DNA of 40,718 bases from a virus, in the IMG/VR virus record IMGVR_UViG_3300045885_000294, positions 1-40,718 of that record, one strand, 5' to 3'. The position numbers and the translations under genes were made by a program. Shown here piece after piece: positions 18,946-34,174 of this stretch; the stretch's first letter is position 1, and the number at the start of each line of letters is the position of its first letter. The notes beneath the pieces were generated by a model. It searched no databases. It was not told the DNA's origin and saw only the letters and a list, made by a program, of their open reading frames with translations.

Positions 18946-20292
18946 ATGGCCGCTCCCGGCATCCGCCACATCGAGATCCTGCTGCCGACGGCGGCAGGGA
19001 TTACGGAGACCATCTCTCCCGGCGGGACGCTGACGACTGCCGGGGCGCTGACCGTCAAGGCCCAGCAGCGAGCCGGCCTGGGCGGGACGCTCAGCTCTGC
19101 AGGTTCCCTGGTCCGCAAGGCGACGCAGGCGCTTGCCGGCACGCTGACCTCGAGCGGCGCGCTGGTCCGCAAGGCGACGCAGTCCCTGGCGGGGTCGCTC
19201 GCGACGGCGGGCAGCCTGATCGTTTCGCGCGTGGTCACGCAGACCGGCGGCGGCACGTTGACCACGGCCGGCGCGCTGGCGGCGAAGGTCCTGCAGGTCT
19301 ACGCGGGCACGCTCTCGACGTCGGGCGCTCTCGTCCTCGAGGCGGGCAAGGCGCTCGGCGGCACGCTGACCAGCGCTGGCGCTGTCGCCCTGCGCGTCCA
19401 GGCGGCGTTCTCAGGCACGCTCGGCACGGCGGGCAGTCTGACCGCCTCGCGGGTGCAGCGCATCGCCCTGGACGGCACGCTGGGCACCGCCGGCAGCCTG
19501 GCCGTCGAGGTCGCGCGCAGCCTGGCCGGGACGCTCGGGACGGCAGGGACGCTGGCGACCGATATCCAAAAGGCGCTCGCTGGCACGCTGGCCTCGAGCG
19601 GCTCGCTAGTCCGGCGGACCTCCAGGACGTTAGCCGGCACGCTGAGCACGAACGGCACACTCGCCGTCCGCGTGACGCAGAGCCTGGCAGGAACCCTCGC
19701 GACGTCCGGCGCGCTCGAAGTCCAGAAGCTGACCGGCATTTTCCACCAGGACGCAGCCGGCACGTTCAGCACTAACGGTTCGCTTGCCTGGAGAGTCCTG
19801 CAGGGATTAGGCGGGACGCTCGCTACGGCTGGAAGCCTGACGCGCCGCCTGGACCTGCATCTGGCGTTCTCCGGCACGCTTGGGCTGGCCGGCGACTTAG
19901 TGCGTCGGCTGGATCTCCATCTCAGCTTTGCCGGCACGCTGGCGACGGCCGGCTCCGTCATCCTCTCGCGCGTCCAGGGACTTGCCGTGGGAGGGACGCT
20001 GGCGACGGCCGGCGCGCTCGTCGTCTCCCGTGTCACCGCGCTCCAGGTCAGCGGCACGCTCGGGCTGGCCGGCGAGGCGACGCTGGTTGAGCCGGAGATA
20101 AGCAACCCTGCGCCGCCGGTCCTCCTCGAGGCCAGCTACCTGCCGCTCCTGGAGCTTGCCGCGGCGCATACTGCGACCATCAACCTGCAGGGACGGCTGA
20201 CGCCTACGATCGCACTCCCGGCCAGCTACGAGCCGGAGGAACTACACGCCGGCAGCGCGGGAATTCTGGAGCTTACAGGGAGTTACGGGTAA
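18946..20292 (+). CDS. Repetitive structural protein with 19 GTL-x-x-(A/S/N)G-x-L repeats
   Basis: 448 residues. From about residue 26 to 375 the protein is 19 imperfect repeats of 17-23 residues with core (A/G/S)GTL-(T/S/A/G)-(T/S)-(A/S/N)G-(S/A/T)L, separated by short spacers such as VRKATQSL. The regular GTL..AG.L rhythm suggests a beta-solenoid or stacked beta-hairpins. The last 70 residues are different (repeated LEASYLPLLEL / LPASYEPEEL / LELTGSYG), probably a cap or attachment. It probably forms an elongated fibre or spike. It ends overlapping the next gene (TAATG). Confidence 0.75.
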   Translation: MAAPGIRHIEILLPTAAGITETISPGGTLTTAGALTVKAQQRAGLGGTLSSAGSLVRKATQALAGTLTSSGALVRKATQSLAGSLATAGSLIVSRVVTQTGGGTLTTAGALAAKVLQVYAGTLSTSGALVLEAGKALGGTLTSAGAVALRVQAAFSGTLGTAGSLTASRVQRIALDGTLGTAGSLAVEVARSLAGTLGTAGTLATDIQKALAGTLASSGSLVRRTSRTLAGTLSTNGTLAVRVTQSLAGTLATSGALEVQKLTGIFHQDAAGTFSTNGSLAWRVLQGLGGTLATAGSLTRRLDLHLAFSGTLGLAGDLVRRLDLHLSFAGTLATAGSVILSRVQGLAVGGTLATAGALVVSRVTALQVSGTLGLAGEATLVEPEISNPAPPVLLEASYLPLLELAAAHTATINLQGRLTPTIALPASYEPEELHAGSAGILELTGSYG

Positions 20293-21433: not shown

Positions 21434-21916
21434 TCAGCCTGCATCGTCGAAGAGCGCCCGTGCTTCCGCCATCATCTCCGTCGCATCATCCAGCAACTCG
21501 CCGCTGAGGTTGATGTCCTCCACCGTGCCGCCCGGCTCGAGGCCGGTCTGGAGGGCGGCCATCGATAGGTCCAGCGTGGCGACCGCTTCCTCGATTGCCG
21601 TGTCCGCTTCCTCAAATTCAGGCAAGTCCGGCTCCAGGGCGCTGACTACTCCGGTCTGAGCGGAGACTTCCTGAGCCTTGGCAAGCAGGTCATTTACTGC
21701 CTGGTCAGGATCCTCAGCACTGGCGATATCGCTGGCCATCTCATCCACGTCGTTCATCAGGTCGCTGAGCGTGTCCAGCTCCTCTTCCATCTGTTCCTGG
21801 TAAGACGAGGCGGCGGAGTCGTCACTGTCGGCGCTGCTATCGTCGTCGTCGCTGCTGCAGGCTGCCCCGAATAGAGTGAGGCCTAGAATCACGGTGCCCA
21901 AAATAGAAATGCGCAT
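21434..21916 (-). CDS. Lipoprotein, probable lysogenic-conversion gene
   Basis: 160 residues, ATG with AGAGGAGATG upstream. A signal peptide with lipobox (LFGAAC, Cys at residue 20) is followed by an Asp/Ser tract (SSDDDDSS...) and then long acidic helices likely to form a helical bundle. It is leftward in an otherwise rightward region, separated from the lysin by only 15 bases, and downstream of the RHH gene. Surface lipoproteins carried by prophages often block superinfection by related phages; that role is inferred here. Confidence 0.75.
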   Translation of the reverse strand: MRISILGTVILGLTLFGAACSSDDDDSSADSDDSAASSYQEQMEEELDTLSDLMNDVDEMASDIASAEDPDQAVNDLLAKAQEVSAQTGVVSALEPDLPEFEEADTAIEEAVATLDLSMAALQTGLEPGGTVEDINLSGELLDDATEMMAEARALFDDAG

Positions 21917-21958
21917 ATCTCATCTCCTCTGAGAAATAGGGTTGGGGGGAATGGGGCC

Positions 21959-22168
21959 TCAGCCGGTGACGGTCTGGAGGCCGAGGGTTTCCAGTTCGGC
22001 CTGGAGGGCGCCGTTGCCGGCGTCGGCCTGCTGGCGCGCTATCTGGTGCAACTGCACCAGCCGCTCGAGGTAACGGCCGACGGTGAGGCCGCGAACGGCG
22101 GCGGCGTGTTTGATTTCCTCGACAGCGTCGCTATCGATGTTGCGGACATTGAGCGTGGTGTCGGACAT
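21959..22168 (-). CDS. Ribbon-helix-helix DNA-binding protein
   Basis: 69 residues, ATG with AAGGAG 8 bases upstream. The N-terminus has the RHH pattern: a short strand (TTLNVRNID) and two helices (SDAVEEIKHAAAVRGLTVGRYLERLVQ). Such proteins are antitoxins or small transcription factors; no toxin gene is beside it. Upstream are two CAGGATA repeats spaced 10 bp, likely its own operator, suggesting it controls this leftward unit including the lipoprotein. Confidence 0.75.
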   Translation of the reverse strand: MSDTTLNVRNIDSDAVEEIKHAAAVRGLTVGRYLERLVQLHQIARQQADAGNGALQAELETLGLQTVTG

Positions 22169-22203
22169 GGCGGCTCCTTGCTCTTGTTATCCCAAGGCTA
22201 CAT

Positions 22204-22220
22204 CAGGATACCGCAGGATA
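22204..22220. promoter_or_regulatory. Direct repeat CAGGATA x2, putative RHH operator
   Basis: CAGGATA at 22204-22210 and 22214-22220, spaced by one helical turn and 36 bases upstream of the leftward RHH gene. RHH dimers commonly bind such phased short repeats. Assignment to this protein is inferred. Confidence 0.4.
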
Positions 22221-22275
22221 GCAAGGCGAGCACGCGGCCGTGTCAATCAGGCGACACCGGCTGTCGCGAGATAGG

Positions 22276-22311
22276 TGCTATAGTGCCCCTGCTGTACAGA
22301 ACAAGCGTTCT
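22276..22311 (+). promoter_or_regulatory. LexA-type box over an extended -10 promoter
   Basis: TGC-TATAGT (22276-22284) is an extended -10; a start near 22291 is expected. Just downstream, 22298-22311 reads AGAAC AAGC GTTCT, a perfect 5-bp inverted repeat containing GAAC-N4-GTTC, the LexA box form of Gram-positive bacteria and Dehalococcoides. LexA there should block the promoter until DNA damage. The transcript runs into the small gene at 22333 and antisense to the repressor gene. Confidence 0.7.
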
Positions 22312-22332
22312 AAGGAACGTGAGGGAGGGATA

Positions 22333-22542
22333 GTGGCCGAGCGAACGTACGTCGTCATCGTGAAGTCCTCAGACCGGCGGCGCCTGAAGCGCGACCTGTC
22401 GCTCTGCGGCCAGATTGTCTTGGGGCCTGCGTACCTTCCTGCTCGCGCCGAAACACGAGTAATTGCGTGTGTACAAGCAAGTACTCCTGATCGTCGGGGT
22501 CCAGCCGCAGATAGTAGTCGAGAAATTCCGGGGGCAGCTTAG
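22333..22542 (+). CDS. Putative SOS-induced antirepressor-type small protein
   Basis: 69 residues, GTG start with GAGGGAGGG a few bases upstream. The front (ERTYVVIVKSSDRRRLKRDL) is strand-then-basic-helix and looks protein-like. From 22355 it overlaps the C-terminal part of the convergent repressor gene on the opposite strand, so its second half may be constrained by that overlap. It is driven by the LexA-box promoter. By analogy with phage 186 Tum it might inactivate the repressor, or the transcript might interfere with repressor expression. Its family is not recognised. Confidence 0.5.
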   Translation: MAERTYVVIVKSSDRRRLKRDLSLCGQIVLGPAYLPARAETRVIACVQASTPDRRGPAADSSREIPGAA

Positions 22543-22774
22543 CGCCTGGATCGAGGTCGAGCTTTACGTCGAGGACAAGCTCGAACAGGCGCGACTTCGA
22601 CAGCCCGAGCTGATCGCCCAGCGCGACGATCTGATCCATGTCCGGACGGAGCTTCCCGACCTCCCACCGGCTGAGAATCGAACGGTCGACGCCCAGGCGC
22701 TCCGCAAGTTGCTCCTGCGTGAGCCTCCGTTGAACACGGGCCTGGCGGACGTAGCGGCCGAAATCCTCGAGCAC
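22355..22774 (-). CDS. HTH XRE-family immunity repressor (CI-like)
   Basis: 139 residues, start GTG 22774. A classic helix-turn-helix lies at about residues 17-50 (RLTQEQLAERLGVDRSILSRWEVGK). The middle (EFLDYYLRLDPDDQEYLLVHTQLL) is helical and probably an oligomerisation domain; there is no LexA-like self-cleavage domain. That fits a need for a separate SOS-induced antirepressor. The last 25 residues are Arg/Gly-rich and low complexity. It faces the rightward early operon across an 84-base control region with GTGCAC sites. Confidence 0.85.
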   Translation of the reverse strand: MLEDFGRYVRQARVQRRLTQEQLAERLGVDRSILSRWEVGKLRPDMDQIVALGDQLGLSKSRLFELVLDVKLDLDPGAKLPPEFLDYYLRLDPDDQEYLLVHTQLLVFRREQEGTQAPRQSGRRATGRASGAAGLRTSR

Positions 22775-22782
22775 CAGAAAAG

Positions 22783-22811
22783 ATTATGTGCGCTGTGTGC
22801 ACTCCGCTCGA
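22783..22811 (-). promoter_or_regulatory. Repressor promoter, probably leaderless
   Basis: On the minus strand a CATAAT -10 (22783-22788) lies 9-14 bases before the GTG at 22774, with a weak -35 (TCGAGC, 22806-22811) at 17-bp spacing. The predicted start is about 22776, so the mRNA would begin at or within two bases of the start codon. A GTGCAC operator-like site (22797) lies in the spacer, suggesting autoregulation. Confidence 0.5.
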
Positions 22812-22858
22812 AAGATGAGGGTTGACAGCGCGGACGCACCGTGCACATACTCGTGCAC
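22797..22858. promoter_or_regulatory. Three GTGCAC operator-like palindromes
   Basis: GTGCAC occurs at 22797-22802, 22841-22846 and 22853-22858, with a near copy (GTGCGC) at 22788. One lies in the repressor promoter and two flank the -10 of the early promoter (12 bp apart). This is the layout of repressor or Cro operators that block divergent promoters. Binding is not proven. Confidence 0.55.
22822..22851 (+). promoter_or_regulatory. Early rightward promoter (PR-like), probably leaderless
   Basis: Perfect TTGACA (22822-22827), 18-base spacer, then CATACT (22846-22851, 4 of 6 matches). A start seven bases later falls on 22858, and the ATG of the first early gene is at 22859, so the transcript should be leaderless. 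Confidence 0.65.
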
Positions 22859-23095
22859 ATGGCACACGGTACCAAGACGGCCGGGCACCTGTCGGCGGCG
22901 GACTCGACTCCGAAGGGCGTCCGGCTGCCGAAGTGGCTCTGGGCCGCGATCGATGCTGAGGCGGCCGCTCTGCAGATGACCCGTAACGAGATACTGTTCC
23001 TGCGCCTGCGGCAGGTTTTTCCTGTGCCCGCTGATGTGCAGAGCAAGCCCGCAGTCGTGTTAAATGCGAACACCATCGACATGGAGCTCGTTTGA
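22859..23095 (+). CDS. Cro-like ribbon-helix-helix regulator
   Basis: 78 residues from ATG 22859, picked over upstream GTGs at 22841 and 22853 because those lie inside the operator and promoter. The segment GVRLPKWLWAAIDAEAAALQMTRNEILFLRLRQV is a strand plus two helices like an RHH/Arc-type DNA-binding domain. First gene of the rightward early operon opposite the repressor, the usual place for a Cro function. Stop overlaps the next ATG (TGATG). Confidence 0.65.
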   Translation: MAHGTKTAGHLSAADSTPKGVRLPKWLWAAIDAEAAALQMTRNEILFLRLRQVFPVPADVQSKPAVVLNANTIDMELV

Positions 23096-23340
23096 TGCCG
23101 CGGATCAGCAGGGAGGACCTGCAGACGCGGCTGGAAGGCCTCCGCGAGCGCGCCCACCTGGACCTGGCCTTCGCGATGGAGAGCTACCGGGAAACGATGA
23201 ACGAGACGGACAGCCTGTGGAGCCTGCTCCTGGGCGAGGAACCTCCGGCGAGCCGGCTGAAATCGCTCACTGGTAAGGCCACGACGCAGGCGACGTCCCG
23301 GCAGCTGCCCCTGGCGAGGGCGCTCGAGGAGAGCGCATGA
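23095..23340 (+). CDS. Hypothetical early protein
   Basis: 81 residues, ATG overlapping the preceding stop. Helical and charged (ISREDLQTRLEGLRERAHLDLAFAMESYRET...), with a short possible coiled coil in the first 45 residues and a basic, Ser/Thr-rich end. No known motif. Operon context suggests a small regulatory or replication-accessory protein. Confidence 0.6.
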   Translation: MPRISREDLQTRLEGLRERAHLDLAFAMESYRETMNETDSLWSLLLGEEPPASRLKSLTGKATTQATSRQLPLARALEESA

Positions 23341-32156: not shown

Positions 32157-32518
32157 GCGAGCCGCGCGAGGTAATGACGCTGCCCCAGGTCTGCGAGTAC
32201 CTGGCCATCTCGCCAAAGACTTGCCGCGCCTGGATGGCTGACGAAGGGCTGCCGTCCTTCACCGTCGGCTCGCTCCGCCGCTTCCTTAAGGCCGCCCTCG
32301 ACGAATGGCTTGCTGAGCGCCAGCGAATCGCCAAACTAGCCACAGAGGTGGAACCATGCGAGTCGTCAGGAACCGCTACGGCGGCTGGGACGCCATCGAG
32401 GAGGCCCCTGGCCGTGGTCAGCGCCGGCGAATCGTCCGCTCTGGCCGCACCCAGCGCGAGGCCAAAGAGCGACTCCGCGAAGCCGTGGGAGTCCCGCTGG
32501 GAAGCGGCACGCCGCTAG
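32153..32518 (+). CDS. HTH (MerR/excisionase-like) protein overlapping the integrase
   Basis: 121 residues in full. Residues 8-50 (VMTLPQVCEYLAISPKTCRAWMADEGLPSFTVGSLRRF) are a winged-helix excisionase-like motif as in small recombination directionality factors. From 32356 it overlaps the integrase in another frame for 163 bases, where its sequence becomes low-complexity; a shorter functional part seems likely. Directly before an integrase, it is a good candidate for a directionality factor. Confidence 0.65.
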   Translation: MSEPREVMTLPQVCEYLAISPKTCRAWMADEGLPSFTVGSLRRFLKAALDEWLAERQRIAKLATEVEPCESSGTATAAGTPSRRPLAVVSAGESSALAAPSARPKSDSAKPWESRWEAARR

Positions 32519-33432
32519 CCGACTACCTGCGCGAGTGGCTGCGCAGCAAGGAGCGCGCCCTGGCGCCGGGCACTTTCCGCAGCTACGAGCAGAAGCTCCG
32601 CACGGGTATCGTCCCGGTGCTCGGCGACGTCCGGCTGCGCGACCTCTCGGCGCCCATGATCGAGGAAGCCCTGGCCTTGATGCCGCAGAGTCAGCGCACG
32701 ATCCACAGCACGAAGGCGGTCCTCTCCACGGCCCTGCGCGCGGCGGTCAAGAAGAAGCTGATCGCCTCGAATCCCTGCGATGGCGTGGAGGGAGTCGTCC
32801 GCGGGCCACGGCCCGAGATTGTCTACCTAACGCTTGACCAGGCAGCAGCGCTCCTCGAGACCTGCGAGGCACGAGATGACGCTTACGGCGACCTGGTGGC
32901 GCTCGCCCTGCTCACGGGCATGCGCAAGGGCGAACTGCTAGGGCTGCGCTGGGGCGACGTCCGCCCTGCCGCGCTGCTTATCCAGCGCTCGCGCGTAGAT
33001 GCGCCGGGCGGACTCCTCGAGAAAGCGCCGAAGTCGAAGGCCGGCGTCCGTGCTGTACCGCTAGGTCCTGCAGGAAAAGCGACTCTCGCCCGCGCTCGAG
33101 CCCGCCTGGTAGCCGCGCCGCTGCCCACGGCCTACGTGTTCGACCTGCACTCCACGCAGCTCCAGAAGCACTTCAAGCGCATCCTCAGGCAGGCAGGACT
33201 TCCCTCCGTTCGCCTCCACGATCTGCGCCACACAGCCGCCACGCAGCTCGGCGCCGTAACCGACATCAAGACGATCCAAACGCACCTCGGGCACAGCTCG
33301 ATCGGCGTGACGGGCGACATGTACATGCACGCCGTGACCGCCCACGCGGTCGCCGCGGTGGAGGCTTACGAGGCGCTCCTGCAGGAATTCCGGCATGGCG
33401 GCGGCATGGCGAACGCCGCAGACATAGGCTAA
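32356..33432 (+). CDS. int: Tyrosine recombinase integrase
   Basis: 358 residues. N-terminal arm-binding region (RYGGWDAIEEAP...), core-binding helices at 55-150, and a catalytic domain with TGMRKGELLGLRW (first Arg), a Lys around KAPKSKAGVR, HDLRHTAA (His-x-x-Arg), LGHSSIGVTGDMYMH (His and Tyr nucleophile). All catalytic residues are present. The gene lies just before attP, as usual, so the phage is temperate and integrates by site-specific recombination. Confidence 0.92.
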   Translation: MRVVRNRYGGWDAIEEAPGRGQRRRIVRSGRTQREAKERLREAVGVPLGSGTPLADYLREWLRSKERALAPGTFRSYEQKLRTGIVPVLGDVRLRDLSAPMIEEALALMPQSQRTIHSTKAVLSTALRAAVKKKLIASNPCDGVEGVVRGPRPEIVYLTLDQAAALLETCEARDDAYGDLVALALLTGMRKGELLGLRWGDVRPAALLIQRSRVDAPGGLLEKAPKSKAGVRAVPLGPAGKATLARARARLVAAPLPTAYVFDLHSTQLQKHFKRILRQAGLPSVRLHDLRHTAATQLGAVTDIKTIQTHLGHSSIGVTGDMYMHAVTAHAVAAVEAYEALLQEFRHGGGMANAADIG

Positions 33433-33467
33433 TCTCGTGAATCTGAATCTGAGGCGCCAGCTGCGAA

Positions 33468-33500
33468 TGGTGGGCGGTGGGGGACTCGAACCCGCGAGAG
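33468..33500. other. attP: attP core: 3' end of a host tRNA gene
   Basis: The minus strand reads CGCGGGTTCGAGTCCCCC then ACCGCCC-A-CCA, the T-arm, acceptor 3' strand, discriminator and CCA of a tRNA, but no matching 5' part exists. Integrases commonly target tRNA 3' ends, leaving the gene intact. Its position 35 bases after int supports attP. A small GAATCT direct repeat at about 33440-33451 may be an integrase arm site. Expected tRNA 5' acceptor strand is GGGCGGT. Confidence 0.72.
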
Positions 33501-33580
33501 CCCTATCTGCCCGCTATTGCCCGAATCTACTACACCCGGCAAGAGCGCTCCAGAGCGGCATAGTTTCGCCGAGTTTCGGC

Positions 33581-34174
33581 ATGGGCGCGGCATGGCGGCC
33601 GCTGGCTGGTGTTGCCCTGGTGCTGGCCCTTGCTACCTGCCCGGCTGCCAACGCTGACGCGGGAGAGCCGCGCCCCACCTGGGCGACGGGCGCCGTGACC
33701 TACTACTTCAACCCGTCCGGCTACGTGGGGGATTTGACGCTCGGCGAGTTAGAGGCGGCCATTGTGGAAGGGCTGGCCGTATGGAACGACCGCGCTGCCT
33801 TCGAGCACGCCTACGGCGGGCTGACCGACGCGCCCGCCGACACCCACGACGGCGTGAACGTGATCGCCTTCGGCGAAGTGGGGAACATCGCGGGCGCCCG
33901 CTCTCGCGAGGCGGACGGCTGGATAACCGAGACGGACATCACTCTGCGGGCGAACATCCCCTTCAGCATCGGCGGCTGGTACGACCTTGCCTTCGTGGTC
34001 GCTCACGAAGCGGGCCACGGCCTCGGGCTGAGCCACACGGACACGTACCCCTGCGACACTCGCGAGGACCGCGCCGTCATGTGTGAGGGCTACGCCTTTG
34101 ACCCGGAGTGGGCCATTCACCCTGACGACGTCAGGCGCTTGCGCGACCTGTACCTGCCGGAGTTCGCCAGATGA
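33581..34174 (+). CDS. Secreted matrixin-like zinc metalloprotease (cargo gene)
   Basis: 197 residues from ATG 33581. A signal peptide (about residues 5-26) is followed by VTYYFNPSGYV and a helix. The zinc motif HEAGHGLGLSH (HExxHxxGxxH) lies in FVVAHEAGHGLGLSHTDTYP, and a Met-turn-like VMCEGY follows. This is the metzincin/matrixin arrangement. Placed immediately beyond attP, it is a typical site for lysogenic cargo that would be expressed from the prophage. It probably cleaves extracellular proteins; substrate unknown. Confidence 0.82.
   Translation: MGAAWRPLAGVALVLALATCPAANADAGEPRPTWATGAVTYYFNPSGYVGDLTLGELEAAIVEGLAVWNDRAAFEHAYGGLTDAPADTHDGVNVIAFGEVGNIAGARSREADGWITETDITLRANIPFSIGGWYDLAFVVAHEAGHGLGLSHTDTYPCDTREDRAVMCEGYAFDPEWAIHPDDVRRLRDLYLPEFAR

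Follow-up and report, generated by a model that had tools for sequence, protein, structure and literature searches.

How could DNA damage reach the lysogeny switch in a temperate phage whose immunity repressor carries no self-cleaving domain? This question is raised by positions 22276 to 22542 of a virus record of 40,718 bases, which was analysed at full length and is called the window here. The ends of the record overlap by 127 bases, which indicates a circular assembly, and another contig (L002) shows the identical sequence across the end join. The genes include capsid, portal, terminase, endolysin, a tyrosine integrase (32356–33432, plus strand; match to the PHROG 1 integrase, E 2.7e-65) and an excisionase-like protein. 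Because integrase and excisionase-like protein are encoded, the phage is temperate. The gene immediately 3′ of the integrase (33437–34174) matches matrixin-type (M10) metallopeptidases, and an ORF of 448 aa at 18946–20292 is built from numerous imperfect repeats (GTLxTAGSLxx).

The immunity repressor, a protein of 139 aa, is encoded on the minus strand (22355–22774; Pfam HTH_3, E 3e-13). A Pfam scan matched only HTH families and no S24/LexA-type peptidase domain, as had been claimed in a sequence-only reading of this DNA. Candidate repressor operators lie between divergent promoters at 22788–22858, namely three copies of GTGCAC (22797, 22841, and 22853) and one GTGCGC (22788), and thus three of the five GTGCAC copies of the window fall into this stretch. 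The early rightward promoter TTGACA-N18-CATACT (22822–22851, plus strand; 10 of 12 matches) was the only promoter-like site within 21900–23100. The first gene of the early operon, in the cro position, encodes 78 aa from an ATG at 22859 (22859–23095, plus strand) and has no informative family match in Pfam or PHROGs. Its ATG directly follows the CATACT -10 element, beside the GTGCAC operator array (22841–22866), which suggests a leaderless or near-leaderless message. Next to the switch (21434–22168), a leftward lipoprotein-like ORF (21434–21916) and a further leftward ORF, whose ribbon-helix-helix match is sub-threshold (21959–22168), are possibly expressed in the lysogen.

Direct reading of the sequence showed an extended -10 element of a rightward promoter, TGC-TATAGT (TGCTATAGT, 22276–22284, plus strand), for which a -35 element was not recognisable. 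Closely 3′ of it, at about +6 to +20, lies the LexA-type box AGAAC-AAGC-GTTCT (AGAACAAGCGTTCT, 22298–22311), and a purine-rich ribosome-binding site (GAGGGAGGG, 22320–22329, plus strand) precedes a small gene of 69 aa with a GTG start (22333–22542, plus strand). The small gene overlaps the convergent repressor gene by 188 nt. Promoter, box, and overlapping gene were all found as the sequence-only reading had described them. An exact GAAC-N4-GTTC occurs only once in the window, in this box. Simulation gave an expectation of 0.48 copies per 40.7 kb for this 8-base core and of 0.007 for the full AGAAC-N4-GTTCT. As 0.48 copies are expected and one was seen, the core alone is weak evidence; from the sequences compared, the remarkable part is the full palindrome together with its recurrence in relatives, and the case for the box rests on these relatives. 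The E. coli-type CTGT-N8-ACAG box was not enriched (106 matches versus 133 expected).

The closest relatives of the terminase in cellular genomes include many Chloroflexota, the remainder being largely Actinomycetota, and the tetranucleotide composition of the window is nearest to the DNA of genomes G738 and G270 among the loci compared. G270 presumably belongs to the Dehalococcoidia, because its class includes G040, a Dehalococcoidales MAG genome, and the phage host is probably a member of the Dehalococcoidia (Chloroflexota) as well. In nine of these Chloroflexota genomes, GAAC-N4-GTTC was present upstream of lexA at eight of ten loci, six times exactly and twice with one mismatch, and no upstream box was seen at the other two. 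The lexA promoters of G270, G601, and G738 contain CGAAC-N4-GTTCG a few bases 3′ of the -10 element and directly before the lexA start, and in G601 TGC-TAAAGT is found upstream of the box. The pattern MGAAC-N4-GTTCK has 25 sites in G270, compared to 4 for the reversed pattern, and boxes lie 13–16 nt before genes for a dnaE2-like protein (PHP + DNA_pol3_alpha), a Y-family polymerase (IMS), and an sbcD-type metallophosphoesterase. This set looks like an ordinary SOS regulon. The flanks of the Y-family polymerase box (AGAACACATGTTCT) are the same as those of the phage box, which matches the boxes of lexA, dnaE2-like, Y-polymerase, and sbcD-like promoters of the presumed Dehalococcoidia host class. 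The host-side sequences show GAAC-N4-GTTC to be the SOS motif of the group to which the host probably belongs, in agreement with the earlier designation of the box as LexA-type.

The window repressor was searched by protein similarity against 400 Chloroflexota genomes. On the 3′ side of a homologue in G270 (L133), TGC-TAGCAT is followed by 11 nt, AGAACATTAGTTCT, AAGGGTGGGG, and the ATG of an ORF that is antisense to the repressor gene. The locus is part of a prophage running from integrase to tail, and its integrase, terminase, portal, protease, and capsid are related to those of the window (identities of 43% for the capsid and 39% for the protease). In G601, a homologue of the G270 repressor (L270) is also opposed by an antisense ORF. 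The palindrome preceding this ORF, GTGAAC-GAAGGT-GTTCAC (L270:400–419), has an N6 spacer, unlike the lexA gene of G601, which carries a normal N4 box. The distances between repressor stop and small-gene start are 22, 13, and 82 nt in the window, G270, and G601, respectively, and by codon count roughly 35 codons separate the start of the small ORF from the antisense of the repressor motif LLxxREER in each of them. The three small proteins were then combined into a profile, in which the box was not used. It was searched against 393 genomes, and weak matches below L273 were left out. A fourth small protein was found in G738 (E 1.8e-6 for one genome), the gene of which has GGAACAGGTGTTCT 6 nt 5′ of its ATG. 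An HTH_3 repressor was absent opposite this gene and within the 35 kb read, so the G738 protein must act on something else, act in trans, or be a relic. The family thus has four known members, and in three of the four copies, those in the window, G270, and G601, the small gene lies opposite a repressor gene. By comparison of these loci, the arrangement of box and small gene is more than chance. The antisense arrangement appears to be a conserved layout and is possibly an extra layer of control, rather than a demonstrated cause of repressor loss.

Two further repressor homologues (L106 and L110, 38–39% identity) were considered as the same layout and were rejected, the box being absent at their 3′ ends. 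AGAAC-N4-GTTCTAAGG was found in 113 stretches of viral contigs, and the layout was absent among those examined. In the 393 class genomes the same pattern had 3 matches, a number that does not exceed that of the reversed control, and is not enriched by itself. One of these matches (AGAACGTGAGTTCTAAGG) is placed where a radA-like gene starts (L263, G427:C40:19623).

The conservation of the small gene was analysed at the protein level. The conserved core comprises about residues 1–50 (22333–22482), and the tail is variable. In shuffle tests, the window protein scored z 4.4 versus the G270 protein and z 5.2 versus the G738 protein, and its first 34 residues alone scored 3.9 and 6.3, respectively. 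The five remaining frames of the same DNA yielded z values of only -1.1 to 1.4 against the two proteins, showing that the similarity is confined to the frame of the small ORF. It is not a by-product of reversed homologous repressors, because the repressor tails are unlike each other and G738 has no HTH_3 repressor within the 35 kb read; the C-terminal tail of the repressor, which lies opposite the small-protein core, is not conserved among homologues. The alignments indicate that the small protein is conserved as a protein, in a family of four members in which the window and G601 proteins, compared as a pair alone, are not significantly similar (z 0.4). AF2 run on the single window sequence predicted a beta-alpha-beta-beta fold over residues 6–48 with a low-confidence tail, at a pLDDT of 57, which is low overall. 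No informative family match was obtained in Pfam, PHROGs, or, by profile search, the PDB, and tblastn of 50,697 phage records at E 10 gave no match. Neither the small protein nor the repressor, each used singly as a query against the viral contigs, gave a match, and no relative turned up in viral contigs, in phage records, or in plasmids.

These results lead us to propose that the DNA-damage input of this lysogeny switch is probably a LexA-controlled protein antirepressor. In the lysogen, host LexA would sit on AGAACAAGCGTTCT 3′ of the extended -10 element and block the rightward promoter. After DNA damage, RecA would prompt self-cleavage of LexA, and the promoter would fire. The product would be a folded protein of about 50 residues with a free tail, which would bind and inactivate the HTH-only repressor that is itself unable to self-cleave. 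The early rightward promoter would then open, and the phage would be induced. As the small gene covers the variable end of the repressor gene in a tail-to-tail orientation, its mRNA would also be antisense to the repressor mRNA and, with no clear plus-strand terminator found between 22542 and 22999, might continue into the early operon; antisense interference and read-through would be secondary boosts. LexA binding, damage induction, and repressor inactivation are proposed by analogy to Gifsy and Tum (PMC3121763), and binding of the repressor by the small protein is suggested by genomic position together with this analogy.

The sequence-only reading had placed antisense transcription, together with the small protein, at the centre of the damage circuit. 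Its box, promoter, small gene, overlap, and non-cleavable repressor were retained, but antisense transcription as a main cause of repressor loss was not supported, since the conserved part is the protein and since in G738 both box and protein are kept although no repressor gene lies opposite. An antisense transcript could nevertheless be the effector by colliding with or annealing to the repressor mRNA, possibly also entering the early operon, and the ORF would then be incidental or minor. The promoter is aimed into the repressor gene across the 188-nt overlap, the transcript has the direction of the early operon with no clear terminator in between, and the layout recurs in G270 and G601. However, an RNA effector would not explain conservation in the small-ORF frame only, nor the G738 copy. 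Even lambda OOP, likewise a phage antisense RNA facing a lysogeny gene and acting as RNA through RNase III, has a minor role at most after SOS induction (PMC2327240); OOP opposes cII and not the CI gene, whereas here the small gene opposes the repressor gene. We consider an RNA effector unlikely, and the conserved, frame-specific ORF with its ribosome-binding site favours a protein effector. As the core mechanism, a protein antirepressor is preferable, with antisense transcription and read-through as possible additions. An extended version, in which one SOS transcript would encode the antirepressor, be antisense to the repressor mRNA, and read through into the early operon, with the overlap under selection for this coupling and the G738 element using the protein on helper prophages in trans, is speculative and improbable as a whole.

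A different role of an SOS-induced small gene, such as excision, host takeover, LexA modulation, or exclusion, with induction of the phage by another route, would agree with the G738 element, which has gene and box but no HTH_3 repressor, and with the lack of an informative family match in Pfam, PHROGs, and PDB. The position of three of the four copies against a repressor gene, and a window repressor that has no damage-sensing domain, speak against it, and it appears rather doubtful. The palindrome might also be due to chance or be part of the repressor's own terminator, accompanied by an accidental antisense ORF in GC-rich DNA. The expected frequency of the 8-base core and a weak terminator-like hairpin of the minus strand (22319–22306) that overlaps the box would be in line with this. 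Nevertheless, the rarity of the full palindrome, its reappearance at the corresponding position in G270 and G738, which were found without using the box, and the occurrence of the host motif in lexA promoters largely refute a chance origin, and we regard it as very unlikely.

The proposed antirepressor can be compared with several known systems. The GfoA and GftA proteins of the Gifsy prophages of Salmonella are small and are expressed from a LexA-controlled promoter of the prophage; they bind repressors that are not cleaved, and can act in trans on other prophages (PMC3121763). The locus described here resembles them, as read from sequence alone, in having a small protein behind a LexA-type promoter and a repressor without a cleavage domain. 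In contrast, the Gifsy genes and a dinI homologue belong to a LexA-regulated operon that follows replication genes, whereas the small gene is convergent with the repressor gene, and no sequence relation to GfoA/GftA was detectable. Tum of coliphage 186 and AntC of N15 are summarised in the same source as LexA-controlled antirepressors (PMC3121763). Tum binds its own repressor and holds it off the operator. Tum has 146 aa with a DinI-like second half, unlike the core of about 50 residues without family match that overlaps the repressor gene here. The smORF antirepressors of Vibrio and Aeromonas phages are likewise very small and homologue-poor and inactivate the repressor of their own phage without proteolysis (PMC10432266). 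However, they are triggered by phage transcription factors or quorum sensing, are SOS-independent, and are divergent from an activator gene. The switch also differs from that of lambda/LexA-type self-cleaving repressors, the S24 peptidase domain of which is absent from the repressor (Pfam). No recognisable similarity to the families of Tum, GfoA, and GftA was found for the small protein (Pfam, PHROGs; tblastn, 50,697 phage records, E 10).

SOS-controlled antirepressors have been known chiefly from enterobacterial phages. The logic is already known from LexA-controlled antirepressors, and the protein is, by sequence comparison, unrelated to Tum and GfoA/GftA. In the part of the literature covered, neither an antirepressor gene antisense to its own repressor gene nor SOS control of Dehalococcoidia prophages was found to be described. 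If the proposal is true, an unrelated protein family would do the same job in Chloroflexota phages, from a gene overlapping that of its target. It would also offer a way in which DNA damage could induce phages whose repressors are non-cleavable, and a sequence tag for spotting such phages. In addition, an SOS box is supplied for a bacterial class for which nothing on prophage induction was found in the literature covered.

Several other loci have features of their own. At a Chloroflexota repressor homologue (L119:1206–1881), TAGAACACCAGTTCTA overlaps the stop codon and is followed by an unrelated gene of 82 aa, which lies on the strand of the repressor gene, a possible second SOS layout. The G738 small gene belongs to an integrative element (L291, G738:C1:1–16342), which begins at a contig end and has an integrase 59% identical to that of the G270 prophage. 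Apart from the LexA-boxed small gene it contains a type I restriction system, a HepT-like gene, a DUF927-type protein, and an excisionase-like HTH gene; no phage structural genes were seen in it, and it looks satellite-like from its gene content. The G270 prophage gene at L290:1447–1740 (G270:C1:~422000) encodes a protein of 97 aa that consists of a LexA-like N-terminal DNA-binding domain only.
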